Under the pieces are notes generated by a model. The model saw only the letters and a list, made by a program, of their open reading frames with translations, was not told the DNA's origin and did not search any database. A DNA stretch of 64,000 bases from an uncultured Ruminococcus sp. (GTDB taxonomy: Bacteria > Bacillota > Clostridia > Oscillospirales > Acutalibacteraceae), in assembly GCA_934476515.1 (NCBI GenBank), contig CAKSNZ010000008.1, forward strand, positions 7,348 through 71,347. Reading direction: 5' to 3'. Below are positions 21,806-28,202 of the stretch, in pieces; the stretch's first letter is position 1; every line of letters starts with the position of its first letter. A program made the position numbers and the translations under genes.

Positions 21806-23032
21806 TTACTTTTTCTTAAAGATACTTATTATTTTTTTAACAAAAGATTTAATAGGATGCTTTAGTAAATACCTTGTTTCTCTTGAGTAGGCCTTTTCTT
21901 TATTTAGTTTTGTGTTAATATCTTTAATTTTGCTATTTAGCTTTTCAAAATCTTTACTATACTGTTGTTTTAACTGTTGATTTTCTTTTTTAAGTTTTTG
22001 ATTTTCCTTATAAATACCACCAACAGCCTTTGTAAAGAACAAGATTACTTCTTCATGATACTTCTTGTCGTTATAATCCCAAGCAGTAGTTTTCTTGTAA
22101 TTATAATCAAACAGTGGTTCATTGTCACCGATATATTCGGCAGCTAATTCTTCATTGCCTTTAATAAAAGGTTTCATATACTTTTCAACCTGTTCAGTTG
22201 ACATCATAGCTGCTTTACTTTCAGGAAGTAGGTTATCACATTCATTAAGCAAAGCAATAAGCTTTTCGTTATCCTCAAATGAAATCGGTCTTAATCTATT
22301 GATAATTCTCTTAATTTCACCTGACTGAATAGACAAACCAACATTTGCAATTTCTTCAAGTGGTTTAAATGTATCATCAAGCTCTAAACCTAAAATATGA
22401 AGAAAATCAGCTGTTAAATCACCTTTGTAAAAATACTTTCTGTCAAATCTCTTAACAATAATATTTTCTTTAGGAACATATTTCGCAATATCCTCAATTC
22501 TTTCACGATACTGAAGCATTGGCTTAAACTGAGTGTTCATAGATTTCTTGTAACTTGCAAATCTTCTGACACCGGCAACAACATCAGTCTTAAGCATCTG
22601 ATTATATCTTGAAAGCATAAGCTGATCTTGTCTTCTTAGATAAACAATAACCTTAATCTGATAATTGTACTTTTCACTGTGTTCCTTTAGGATTTTCCAC
22701 AAATCCTTTTTTCTTGTAGCAGAAATTGTCCAAATACTTTCTTCTGAAAGCATAATAGTATTATGCTCCTGAAAAAGTTCACCAAGGTGTTCTAATTCCT
22801 CAGCAAAAACCTCATTTTCTTTTTCAATATTTCTTTCTCTGCTACCATCAAATGTAATAGAACCAACCAGAAAATGTCCGTTTCTGGTTGGATTTACTCT
22901 TTTAAAGCAATAAGGCATTACAGGATAATGTATGCCAAGTTCATCAAGTCTTTCTCTATTCAAGCCACAAAAGTTTTGAATAGAAGTAGTACCGGTTTTT
23001 GGAGTACCAATATGTAAAATAAGTGTTTTCAT
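21806..23032 (-). CDS. Sulfotransferase family protein
   Basis: A 408-aa protein with the PAPS 5'-phosphosulfate-binding loop at the N-terminus (HIGTPKTGTTSIQ, residues 7-19) and a 3'-phosphate-binding region VIVYLRRQDQLMLSRYNQ near residue 137. These are hallmarks of PAPS-dependent sulfotransferases that add sulfate to glycans or other acceptors. The C-terminal 70 residues form a Lys/Gln/Glu-rich coiled coil. The frame runs back to a GTG at 23044, but GAGG before the ATG at 23032 favours that start. It is directly downstream of an APS kinase gene that would make its donor. The acceptor could be a surface polysaccharide, which is inference. Confidence 0.82.
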   Translation of the reverse strand: MKTLILHIGTPKTGTTSIQNFCGLNRERLDELGIHYPVMPYCFKRVNPTRNGHFLVGSITFDGSRERNIEKENEVFAEELEHLGELFQEHNTIMLSEESIWTISATRKKDLWKILKEHSEKYNYQIKVIVYLRRQDQLMLSRYNQMLKTDVVAGVRRFASYKKSMNTQFKPMLQYRERIEDIAKYVPKENIIVKRFDRKYFYKGDLTADFLHILGLELDDTFKPLEEIANVGLSIQSGEIKRIINRLRPISFEDNEKLIALLNECDNLLPESKAAMMSTEQVEKYMKPFIKGNEELAAEYIGDNEPLFDYNYKKTTAWDYNDKKYHEEVILFFTKAVGGIYKENQKLKKENQQLKQQYSKDFEKLNSKIKDINTKLNKEKAYSRETRYLLKHPIKSFVKKIISIFKKK

Positions 23033-23040
23033 ATTGCACC

Positions 23041-23667
23041 TCACAAAAGCTTTTCTAACTGTTTCATAATCTCATCTACAGATTCTTCAAGTGTATAATT
23101 TGTAGTATCTATAGTAATTGCCGGATTTTCCGGCTTTTCATAAGGACTTGAAATTCCTGTAAATTCCTTAATAACACCATCTCTTGCCTTCTTGTAAAGG
23201 CCCTTAATGTCCCTTTTCTCACATTCTTCAAGAGGTGTACTAACAAAAACTTCAACAAAATCATCACCGATGATTTTGTTAGCATTTCTTCTGTCCTTTC
23301 TAAACGGAGAGATAAAAGCAGTAAGAACAATAAGACCTGCATCATTCATAAGTTTTGCTGTTTCTGCAATTCTTCTAATGTTCTCTACCCTATCTTCATC
23401 GCTAAAGCCTAGGTTTTTGTTAAGTCCCATTCTTACATTGTCACCATCAAGCAACATTGTATGCTTACCCATAGCAACAAGTCTTTTTTCAACTTCGTTA
23501 GCTAAAGTTGACTTTCCGGAACCGGATAGACCTGTAAACCAAATTGTTCTAGCCTTTTGATTTAGTGACTGTTCCCTAATTGTCTTTGAAATATCTGTTT
23601 TTTGCCACACAAGGTTACTGCCCTTTGTAGCAGAAGAAACAGACTTCTGTTCTAAATTGTTATCCAT
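23041..23667 (-). CDS. cysC: Adenylyl-sulfate (APS) kinase
   Basis: Phosphorylates APS to PAPS, the universal sulfate donor. It is 208 aa with an intact P-loop GLSGSGKST near residue 46 and the conserved LDGDNVRMGLNKNLGFSDEDR segment split around residues 74-94. YKKARDGVIKEFTGISSPYE near residue 161 is the typical APS-kinase lid and substrate region. It has a 40-residue N-terminal extension, normal for the family. First gene of a three-gene operon with the sulfotransferase and CHR transporter. No ATP sulfurylase is in the window, so APS must come from elsewhere. Dissimilatory or cysteine-pathway roles are less likely, because a sulfotransferase follows directly. Confidence 0.94.
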   Translation of the reverse strand: MDNNLEQKSVSSATKGSNLVWQKTDISKTIREQSLNQKARTIWFTGLSGSGKSTLANEVEKRLVAMGKHTMLLDGDNVRMGLNKNLGFSDEDRVENIRRIAETAKLMNDAGLIVLTAFISPFRKDRRNANKIIGDDFVEVFVSTPLEECEKRDIKGLYKKARDGVIKEFTGISSPYEKPENPAITIDTTNYTLEESVDEIMKQLEKLL

Positions 23668-25747: not shown

Positions 25748-26677
25748 TTATTCATCATATAGATTAGTTGATAGGTATCTTTCGCCACCATCAGGGAAGA
25801 TAACAACAATGTTCTTACCCTTGTTTTCAGGACGAGCAGCTAACTGCTTACCTGCCCATAGAGCTGCACCTGAAGAAATACCGATTAAGAAACCTTCCTG
25901 CTTAGCAGCCTTTCTGGCTGTTAGGATTGCTTCATCATTAGGTACTGCAATGATTTCATCATAAATTTCTTTATCAAGAGTTTCAGGTACAAAGTTAGCA
26001 CCGATACCCTGAATCTTATGAGGACCGGCCTGACCCTTTGATAGTAGTGGAGATGTTTCAGGTTCTACTGCAATAACCTTAACATTAGGGTTCTGTTCCT
26101 TTAGATACTTACCTACACCGGAAAGTGTACCACCTGTACCAACACCGGCTACAAAGTAATCAACCTTGCCTTCTGTATCTGCCCAAATTTCAGGACCTGT
26201 TGTATCATAGTGCATCTTAGGGTTAATTGGGTTAGTAAACTGACCGGCAATAATGCTGTTTGGAATTTCCTTAGAAAGTTCCTCAGCCTTGTCTGATGCA
26301 CCCTTCATACCCTTGCTACCTTCTGTTAGTACAAGTTCTGCACCGTAAGCCTTAATAAGCATCTTTCTTTCGTTAGACATTGTTTCAGGCATTACGATAA
26401 TTGTTCTGTAGCCTTTAGCAGTTGCAACGGAAGCAAGACCGATACCTGTGTTACCACTTGTAGGTTCGATAATAACTGAACCTTTCTTTAGTCTGCCTGT
26501 CTTTTCTGCATCTTCAATAATAGCCTTAGCTACCCGATCCTTAACACTACCGGCTGGGTTAAATGATTCCAGCTTAGCTAGTAGTGTTGCCTGAATATTT
26601 TCTTCTGCTTCAATATGTGTAAGTTCCAGTAGTGGTGTGTTACCAACTAGTTCTGTAATTGATTTCTTAATTGCCAT
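25748..26677 (-). CDS. cysK: Cysteine synthase (O-acetylserine sulfhydrylase)
   Basis: PLP enzyme that makes L-cysteine from O-acetylserine and sulfide. It is 309 aa. The PLP lysine is in GSVKDRVA (Lys46), the substrate loop is [11 protein letters not shown] near residue 69, and the phosphate-binding GTGGTLSG is near residue 177. It follows metY by 16 bp, so both are in one sulfur-assimilation operon. That operon is headed by a leader ORF with four Cys codons. GC-richer codon use suggests high expression. Confidence 0.96.
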
Positions 26678-26693: not shown

Positions 26694-27986
26694 TTACTTA
26701 ATTGCTGCAAAGCCTTTTTCTAGGTCAGCGATAATATCGTCAATGTTTTCAATACCGATTGATAGTCTTACTGTGTTTCTATAGATACCGGCACCTGCTA
26801 GTTCTTCATCATTCATCTGAGCATGAGTTGTGCTTGCTGGGTGAATTACAAGTGACTTAGCGTCAGCTACGTTAGCTAGTAGTGAGAATAGTTCTAGGTG
26901 GTCGATAAAGTCCTTAGTCTTCTGTTCGTCACCCTTTACTTCAAATGTAAAGATTGAACCACCACCGTTAGGGAAGTACTTCTTATATAGTTCCTGCTGA
27001 GATGGGTCATCAGAAACTGATGGATGGTGAACCTTTTCTACTAGTGGATGGTTGTTTAGGAACTGTACAACCTTTAGTGCATTTTCAACATGTCTTTCAA
27101 CTCTTAGTGAAAGTGTTTCAAGACCCTGTAGGAAGATAAATGCGTGGATTGGTGAAAGTGTAGCACCTGTATCACGAAGTAGTAAAGCTCTAATCTTTGT
27201 TACGAATGCTGCAGCACCTACATCTTCTGAGAAGCTAACACCATGGTAACTTGGGTTTGGAGCAACTAATGATTCAAACTTGCCTGATGCCTTCCAATCG
27301 AATTTACCACCATCAACAATAACACCACCGATTGTTGTACCGTGACCACCGATAAACTTAGTTGCTGAATGAACAACAACATCAGCACCGTATTCAATAG
27401 GTCTTACTAGGTAAGGTGTAGCGAATGTGTTATCAACGATTAGTGGAATGTTGTGCTTATGAGCAATCTTTGCAACTGCTTCAATATCAACAACATCGGA
27501 ATTTGGATTACCAAGTGTTTCAATGAAAACAAGCTTTGTGTTGTCCTTAATTGCATTTTCGATTTCATCAAAATCAAATGGATCAACGAAAGTTGTTTCA
27601 ACACCGTATTCAGGTAGTGTGTGTTCAAGTAGGTTGTATGTACCACCGTAAATGTTCTTAGCAGCAACAACATGGTCACCGTTAGAAGTAATGTTAGCAA
27701 TTGAGTAGTAAACTGCTGCTGCACCGGAAGCAACTGCAAGAGCAGCTACGCCACCTTCAAGAGCTGCAATTCTCTTTTCGAAGATTTCCTGTGTTGGGTT
27801 AGTAAGTCTGCCGTAAATGTTACCTGCATCTGCAAGACCGAATCTTGCTGCTGCATGGTCGCAGTTCTTAAATACAAATGAAGAAGTCTGGTAGATTGGA
27901 ACTGCTCTTGAATCTGTAACTGGGTCCGGAGCTTCCTGACCTACATGTAGCTGAAGTGTTTCGAATTTATAATTATTGTTTGACAT
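26694..27986 (-). CDS. metY: O-acetylhomoserine sulfhydrylase
   Basis: PLP-dependent Cys/Met-metabolism enzyme making homocysteine (or cysteine from O-acetylserine) with sulfide. It is 430 aa, the length of O-acetylhomoserine sulfhydrylases and about 50 residues longer than cystathionine synthases. YGRLTNPTQ near residue 60 and the PLP lysine in HSATKFIGGHG (Lys210) are visible. Ribosome site AAAGGAG. It lies 37 bp downstream of a 31-codon leader ORF, transcribed from a near-consensus sigma-A promoter. With cysK it forms a two-gene sulfide-incorporation operon. Confidence 0.95.
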   Translation of the reverse strand: MSNNNYKFETLQLHVGQEAPDPVTDSRAVPIYQTSSFVFKNCDHAAARFGLADAGNIYGRLTNPTQEIFEKRIAALEGGVAALAVASGAAAVYYSIANITSNGDHVVAAKNIYGGTYNLLEHTLPEYGVETTFVDPFDFDEIENAIKDNTKLVFIETLGNPNSDVVDIEAVAKIAHKHNIPLIVDNTFATPYLVRPIEYGADVVVHSATKFIGGHGTTIGGVIVDGGKFDWKASGKFESLVAPNPSYHGVSFSEDVGAAAFVTKIRALLLRDTGATLSPIHAFIFLQGLETLSLRVERHVENALKVVQFLNNHPLVEKVHHPSVSDDPSQQELYKKYFPNGGGSIFTFEVKGDEQKTKDFIDHLELFSLLANVADAKSLVIHPASTTHAQMNDEELAGAGIYRNTVRLSIGIENIDDIIADLEKGFAAIK

Positions 27987-28023
27987 AATTGTTTCTCCTT
28001 TAAATAAAAAATATATTTTAATG

Positions 28024-28119
28024 TTAGTTAGTTTCTGTTAAGTTTTGTGAGTTATTACAGCAACAACATCGTCCACTGCCATAATTTATTCTGTTGTAAA
28101 AATAAAATTTTTCAGACAT
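28024..28119 (-). CDS. Poly-cysteine leader peptide (31 aa), putative cysteine attenuator
   Basis: A complete short ORF, too small for routine gene calling, lies between the metY promoter and metY. Its ATG has GAGGT 8 nt upstream. Residues 13-21 read YGSGRCCCC, with consecutive codons TGT TGT TGC TGT, followed by ten residues and a stop 37 nt before the metY start. Four adjacent Cys codons in a leader of cysteine-making genes are the signature of ribosome-mediated cysteine sensing. Mycobacterial poly-Cys leader ORFs are a described parallel. No clear intrinsic terminator lies after it, so control may act on metY translation or on Rho rather than by classical attenuation. The mechanism is inference. 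Confidence 0.75.
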   Translation of the reverse strand: MSEKFYFYNRINYGSGRCCCCNNSQNLTETN

Positions 28120-28173
28120 AAATTTTTACCTCATTTCTTAATTACACATTTCCTATCTGTTTAGTGTGATTTG

Positions 28174-28202
28174 AATATATCATATTATTTCTGACTTGTC
28201 AA
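28174..28202 (-). promoter_or_regulatory. Sigma-A promoter of metY-cysK
   Basis: TTGACA, 17 bp, TATATT on the minus strand: a perfect -35 box, optimal spacing and five of six -10 matches. The predicted start near 28167 gives a leader of about 180 nt containing the poly-Cys ORF. Confidence 0.8.

Follow-up and report, generated by a model that had tools for sequence, protein, structure and literature searches.

A Short Leader Frame in Front of metY and cysK

The window, i.e., the whole stretch of 64,000 nucleotides analysed here, carries on its minus strand a sigma-A-like promoter, a 31-codon open reading frame (ORF), a 37-nt spacer, metY and cysK, in this order (Table 1). The promoter (TTGACA-17-TATATT, 28202–28174) was recovered by a scan with 11 of 12 consensus matches, and the ORF encodes the peptide MSEKFYFYNRINYGSGRCCCCNNSQNLTETN. 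A sequence-only reading of this DNA had pointed to the promoter, to a well-initiated 31-codon ORF with the codons TGT TGT TGC TGT and to the 37 nt left before metY, and we found all of them as described; the matches to TIGR01326 and TIGR01139 likewise support the identity it gave to metY-cysK. Judging from the promoter position, the RNA is predicted to start near 28167, about 48 nt before the leader ATG; with this start and its own Shine–Dalgarno sequence (SD), the ORF would not be leaderless. The ORF matches no NCBIfam family, and a scan of the window returned zero Rfam families at gathering score and zero tRNAs.

Table 1. Features of the metY-cysK locus, in window positions.
Feature	Position	Strand	Basis
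−35 hexamer TTGACA	28197..28202	−	Promoter scan; aligned with L001/L002
−10 hexamer TATATT, with TG before it	28174..28179	−	Promoter scan
Operator-like element CACACTAAACAGATAGG, degenerate CCTA-N9-TAGG, at the predicted transcription start	28152..28168	−	Family motif
SD of the leader, GAGGT, 8 nt from ATG	28128..28132	−	Sequence inspection
Leader peptide ORF, 31 codons, KFYFYNRINYGSGRCCCCNN core and tail	28024..28119	−	ORF list; alignment with family members
CGA codon, Arg 17, same codon as in the family	28069..28071	−	92/92 other members
Four Cys codons TGT TGT TGC TGT, proposed sensing codons	28057..28068	−	Sequence; Cys-rich family tails
AU-rich spacer of 37 nt, from leader stop to metY ATG (27986)	27987..28023	−	No terminator, no predicted masking
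metY SD AAAGGAG, inside the spacer	27995–28001	−	Sequence inspection
metY, O-acetylhomoserine sulfhydrylase, first gene behind the leader	26694..27986	−	TIGR01326, 634 bits
cysK, cysteine synthase A, second gene, 16 nt after metY	25748..26677	−	TIGR01139, 440 bits

An adenylylsulfate kinase (23041–23667, minus strand) lies close to metY-cysK. Next to it is a 412-aa protein (21806–23044, minus strand) that matches neither Pfam nor NCBIfam at 1e-5; its N-terminus presumably resembles a sulfotransferase, and a sulfation pair near metY-cysK is possible.

Four consecutive Cys had been taken as very unlikely by chance. The run is indeed rare, with one CCCC-containing ORF among the 1318 of 10–60 aa in the window where 100 dinucleotide shuffles give 0.12 on average, but window-wide it is only mildly unusual; CCC-containing ORFs of the same size number 3 in the window and 1.8 in shuffles. 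By itself the CCCC run is weak and not decisive at this scale, and it is position and conservation that carry the case. We take the leader ORF as real because it is conserved, despite a run that is only mildly unusual.

Leaders of the Same Kind in Other Genomes

We searched for metY in contigs of one genome per species and took the best 80 of at least 549 confirmed loci. A short ORF with CCC near its end is found in the 500 nt upstream in 8 of these best 80 (L001, L002, L004, L006, L007, L015, L019 and L021; the far ORF of L072 was excluded). L001 and L002 are the nearest relatives and both align with the window; from the −10 hexamer to the SD, the window differs from L001 at 3 sites over 53 columns. 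The word CGAATGTG occurs within 330 nt upstream in 20 of the best 80 of at least 549 loci, even without a Cys run, and in the loci inspected it mostly reads Arg-Met-Cys or Arg-Met-stop within a short ORF. It is missing upstream in the other 60 of the 80, four of which (L004, L021, L052 and L055) have a similar ORF without the word; by eye, some loci lacking it have a similar promoter but no leader. Conservation in relatives, proposed as a check, gave a divided answer: the ORF is kept and precedes sulfur genes, whereas the Cys run is not the conserved core.

Searches for the exact word CGAATGTGYTGYTGY in sets of 40, 300 and 299 genomes gave 9, 20 and 24 matches, and the reversed control pattern gave 0, 3 and 5. 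By context, 5, 8 and 7 of these matches are leaders, counts in which L082, L083 and L085 appear twice, and the remainder lie inside longer open frames. Most of the leader peptides carry R-x-N-[FY]-R-x-G-R-M and the others RMCCC alone. A hidden Markov model (HMM) of the R-x-N-[FY]-R-x-G-R-M peptides, later enlarged, was then searched at the protein level. In the family to which L001's genome belongs, it matched (E ≤ 0.02) in 70 of the 300 genomes searched. In the Blautia family, where 299 genomes were covered, the first and smaller HMM gave 139 matches at E ≤ 1. Many of these are weak; the strong ones proved to be leaders, most of them followed by metY. Weak matches were fetched in part. Following 60 further stretches, a local re-scan and the removal of duplicates, 101 rows were available; we left out the 9 that score below 22 bits and kept the other 92 as distinct leaders. 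L188 and L202 belong to the same genome and could be a single locus that was assembled twice. The 92 leaders are not independent cases, since they form 21 clusters at 70% identity over the 12 codons before CGA, and 4 clusters at 60%.

Leaders of this kind occur in Lachnospiraceae and in the family to which the window's nearest relatives belong. None of 368 genomes drawn across the phylum matched the HMM at E ≤ 0.001, and the core form looks confined to a few families on these sequence searches; the HMM does miss divergent leaders, since the genome of L006 (G005) has a leader yet gave no match. Four pattern searches yielded 41 matches set aside as non-leaders, all in stop-to-stop frames of at least 143 aa, a rule that is not exclusive, given that long frames also extend over the true leaders L124 and L135. 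One match counted among the non-leaders, a CGAATGTGCTGCTGT word in L112, has a lipoprotein gene about 90 nt downstream and could be an additional leader. We found no report of the leader family among the open-licence papers listed by our searches; subscription papers fall mostly outside this scope, and absence is not proven.

Sequence motifs identify the downstream gene of the 92 leaders as metY in 72 cases, metQ-like in 8, a sulfate-binding protein in 3 and other in 9. By eye, five of those nine are sulfur genes as well: L181 and L245 have metY (in L181 with an early stop), L202 and L226 a metQ-like gene and L207 a cystathionine lyase/synthase relative. The total of leaders before sulfur genes is thus 88 of 92, a call resting on motif, families or eye, and L179, L205 and L235 precede unrelated genes. 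The leader assigned to metY-cysK is conserved in relatives, but the wider family also stands before genes for metQ-like and sulfate-binding proteins.

Some members deserve individual description. L236, L238 and L246 stand before sulfate-binding proteins, and their leaders have an extra C-terminal motif, GGI[ST]YC, with Trp replacing Phe/Tyr in the core. The L244 leader precedes a nitrogenase-like protein (PF00148), at a guess a sulfur-salvage enzyme. In L147, the leader is followed by a metQ-like gene and then by a gene that we take to resemble the tRNA 2-thiouridylase mnmA. L001's genome has a second leader, L205 (reverse strand, ~1440–1620), which contains two Cys runs and is followed by a 7-codon ORF and an ECF sigma gene; it looks like a decayed or re-used leader copy.

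The Last Arginine Codon and Its Surroundings

Members of the family have the core R-x-N-[FY]-R-x-G-R-(M) in common, and behind it a Cys-rich tail that varies among them. All 92 have R(−7), N(−5) and G(−1), 88 have R(−3) and 86 have [FY](−4). The codons of the conserved core residues vary, R(−7) using six of them. The last Arg, on the other hand, is encoded by CGA in 92/92 members, including 80/80 of those first found at the protein level. CGA makes up 26/1072 Arg codons (2.4%) in the downstream genes of 88 loci and 16/197 of the other Arg codons in the 12 codons before. When we searched 391 genomes for a non-CGA Arg with the pattern GGNMGNATGTGYTGYTGY, 9 matches were obtained against 7 for the reversed control; 8 of them lie inside genes and the one true leader has CGA. 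The window copy is divergent: it keeps R, N, G and R, with Gly at −3, along with the promoter, the CGA and the Cys codons.

The codon after CGA is ATG in 88 of the 92 members and TGT in 4, as it also is in the window. Behind the 88 ATG codons come Cys in 54 cases, a stop in 18 (16 TGA, 2 TAA) and other codons in 16. Cys accounts for 165/715 residues in the tails against 10/1196 in the 13 codons before, and in 23/92 members the four codons after CGA include no Cys. Poly-Cys was tried as the defining feature and rejected, for the tails vary and may be absent. Cys-tRNA cannot be the signal of 18 of the 88 RM leaders because these stop right after Met.

Passages of PMC4046918 describe CGA as slow or poorly read, and as derepressing a bacterial his leader; by analogy, poor reading may explain why CGA is invariant here. 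Pairing to the SD of the next gene, in our model, accounts for the invariance in part only, and little: CGA contributes −0.28 ± 0.15 kcal/mol overall, −0.62 ± 0.20 in the loci with an FGR core and +0.70 ± 0.30 in the rest.

A Palindrome at the Promoter

CCTA-N9-TAGG with at most one mismatch is found upstream of 65/90 leaders, where 3.6 are expected from shuffles; CCTA is fused to a TTGACA-like hexamer in 41/90 (0.1 expected), and two or more copies occur in 24/90 (0.1 expected). The best copy in the window has 2 mismatches and is identical in L001/L002. This is likely, from its sequence and placement, a repressor site over the promoter, i.e., an added transcriptional control. The operator overlaps the −35 hexamer, and a second copy is often seen at the transcription start (e.g., L155, L244 and L206).

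From Leader to Gene Start

The sequence-only reading had noted the lack of an intrinsic terminator between leader and metY. We confirmed this for the window, where the nearest terminator-like site (28259–28229) is upstream of the promoter, and it extends to the family, with 0 terminator-like sites at 84 loci against 0.6 expected. The proposed departure from T-box and SAM-riboswitch control agrees with our Rfam searches, in which neither family matched upstream of metY. T-box RF00230 has no match in the window and none upstream of metY in the best 80 of at least 549 metY loci, the only one among those 80 being downstream of metY (L027, 4207–4444); SAM riboswitches are absent at gathering score from the window and from the same 80 loci.

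Compared with shuffles, the RNA between the CGA and the gene start has somewhat more structure (mean z −0.92). A first pairing test, between the 18 nt from CGA (the RMCCC codons) and the region before metY, gave a mean z of −0.20 (n = 33), with 4 of 33 at p < 0.05; for L096 it took the wrong copy of the word CGAATGTG. Since the test of a wider core was chosen after this one had failed, synonymous and swap controls were added. The core codons AAY TTY CGN TTY GGN CGA ATG TG are complementary to the sequence around the following gene's SD (e.g., L135, L171, L177, L182 and L214). For the 88 loci in which a gene starts no more than 200 nt away (55 FGR, 21 NGR and 12 others), the mean duplex z against shuffled targets is −1.64 for FGR, with 19/55 loci below −2, −1.06 for NGR and −0.71 for the others. 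Synonymous recoding gave a z of −1.02 ± 0.19 for FGR, whereas it was not negative for NGR (0.01 ± 0.31) or for the others (0.27 ± 0.32). Under a stricter control, which merged related loci into 76 clusters and left the codons from CGA onward unchanged, the 46 FGR clusters retain a z of −0.74 ± 0.20, and their own target ranks at 0.31 ± 0.04 among foreign ones (36/46 below 0.5). The corresponding values are −0.14 ± 0.35 and 0.40 ± 0.07 for NGR, and 0.55 ± 0.39 and 0.38 ± 0.10 for the others.

We also modelled a ribosome sitting on CGA-AUG-UGY. SD accessibility rises by more than 0.2 in 24/55 FGR loci and falls in 2; 0/21 NGR loci open and 3 fall, and 1/12 of the rest opens, which amounts to 25 opening and 5 falling over all 88 loci. 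A control ribosome placed 12 codons earlier leads to opening in 4/88 overall and in 2/55 FGR loci. The window's own SD goes from 0.66 to 0.65 with the ribosome, so that masking is not predicted there, and its pairing is no better than with foreign SD regions (rank 0.49). The suggestion of a translational or Rho-dependent output is thus supported on its translational side in the FGR branch, which is the main one, while SD masking is not predicted for the window itself. As to a Rho site, the spacers have 42% A, 12% G and 17% C, being G-poor yet not C-rich.

A programmed frameshift from leader to gene was considered and rejected: 19 of 25 loci, the window included, lack any frame passing the gene start, and an alternative frame passes it in the other 6 (L019, L046, L102, L103, L124 and L135).

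Discussion

We hypothesize, with a little better than even confidence, that the ORF is a regulatory leader read by the ribosome, which combines slowing at CGA, a halt dependent on Met- or Cys-tRNA, unmasking of the SD in the main branch and control through an operator. A ribosome would read the R-x-N-[FY]-R-x-G core and slow at the invariant, poorly read CGA, and a shortage of Met-tRNA or Cys-tRNA would then halt it on the next AUG/UGY codons. In the main branch (core ..RFGR), the codons beneath the halted ribosome would be those complementary to the SD region of the next gene. That SD would be masked when the ribosome is absent and freed when it is halted, allowing metY or metQ to be made. 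A repressor probably acts too, because the promoters carry a palindromic operator, which would form a second, transcriptional layer. We infer leader translation, slowing or stalling, signal, output and direction of control from the patterns described above. In the window, a Cys signal is favoured because the codons after CGA are four Cys; as modelled, this copy has the sensing half and no predicted SD masking. The original idea of a cysteine attenuator retains the conserved ORF, the Cys-rich tails, the sulfur genes and the lack of a terminator, but has to give up poly-Cys as its core.

Alternatively, the peptide rather than its codons could be the active element: R-x-N-[FY]-R-x-G-R-M would sense cysteine, methionine or S-adenosylmethionine in the exit tunnel and arrest at the next codon or UGA, with the Cys tail as an accessory. 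R, N, G and R are kept while their codons change, 18 of the 88 RM leaders end right after RM (16 with UGA), which makes a Cys codon dispensable, and the same core precedes biosynthetic and transport genes, all of which speaks for such nascent-chain arrest. However, peptide chemistry does not explain why the last Arg is always CGA, nor does it sit well with the strong enrichment of Cys codons in the tail, and a masked SD requires arrest in shortage instead of excess. We consider arrest by the nascent chain unlikely. The opposite simplification, a pure poly-Cys codon counter of the mycobacterial type in which Cys-tRNA shortage stalls ribosomes and the output is Rho-dependent or through mRNA stability, draws on the four Cys codons of the window, the missing terminator, the A-rich, G-poor spacers and the mycobacterial cys leaders with Cys runs and no conserved hairpins published in PMC1262725, as far as the relevant passages of that paper go. 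The run, though, is one tail type of several, a quarter of the members (23/92) having no Cys within four codons after CGA, the core upstream of it is conserved and SD pairing is supported in the main branch; such a counter seems to us quite improbable.

The ORF itself might also be incidental. The operator could control these genes alone, with the leader as a by-product, in line with its frequency (65/90 leaders against 3.6 expected) and with the 60 of the best 80 of at least 549 metY loci that lack CGAATGTG, some of them with a similar promoter and, by eye, no leader; yet the frame, the core residues and CGA are kept from lineage to lineage and before different genes, and we give this explanation very little credence. 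It is highly unlikely that the ORF makes a small working protein, e.g., a metal-binding Cys peptide: a Cys run and conserved residues would suit it, but the tail is unconserved and may be absent, no NCBIfam family is matched and 88/92 members are found just upstream of a sulfur gene. The ribosome-read leader with CGA slowing therefore stays our preferred explanation.

Several known systems resemble parts of this leader. In erm-type translational attenuation, a ribosome that halts in the leader makes the start region of the gene behind it accessible. The signal there is a drug, whereas the one proposed here is sulfur amino-acid supply, and masking in the Clostridia leader is predicted to come from the leader's own core codons. 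TnaC-like arrest peptides have conserved nascent-chain residues and halt near the C-terminus; compared by description, our family likewise has conserved residues near the proposed halt site, where stalling is a prediction, but differs in its invariant synonymous codon CGA. The richness in Cys codons expected of a trp/his-type leader is present, in the four Cys of the window and in the Cys-rich tails of the family, but those attenuators need a terminator between leader and gene, and none is found in the window or at the 84 family loci.

Mycobacterial polycysteine leaderless ORFs are reported to work by cysteine-dependent translation attenuation (Canestrari et al. 2020, as summarized in passages of PMC9031893 and PMC13236596). 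They are likewise short Cys-codon ORFs upstream of cysteine genes. Unlike them, the Clostridia leader has its own 5′ UTR (with a predicted start) and SD, an R-x-N-[FY]-R-x-G-R-M core, an invariant CGA and an optional Cys run. Candidate cys leaders of Actinobacteria share Cys-codon runs near the stop and the lack of a conserved terminator hairpin, according to the sections of PMC1262725 dealing with them; these belong to another phylum and to other genes, the same sections do not mention a CGA or RM core, and SD complementarity is supported here in one branch of the Clostridia family. In C. perfringens, Cys T-box and S-box control is described in parts of PMC2940859, where cysteine shortage turns on sulfur genes; in contrast, neither T-box nor SAM riboswitch was found before metY in the window or in the best 80 of at least 549 metY loci.

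Tentatively, and with more doubt than confidence, we suggest a new class of ribosome-based sulfur sensor, in which the core and an obligatory CGA would poise the ribosome over an anti-Shine-Dalgarno and the next codon (AUG, UGY, even UGA) would select the shortage that is sensed, one module serving a whole sulfur regulon of homocysteine synthesis, Met uptake and sulfate uptake. If true, many gut Clostridia would steer sulfur assimilation by a leader read by the ribosome and not by T-boxes or SAM riboswitches, and one leader module would have been placed ahead of several sulfur genes. The CGA found in 92/92 members would then be a rare natural case of a seemingly indispensable single synonymous codon, and the leader offers a testable model for codon-specific ribosome slowing as a regulatory device. 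The family also supplies a list of small ORFs for genome annotation.
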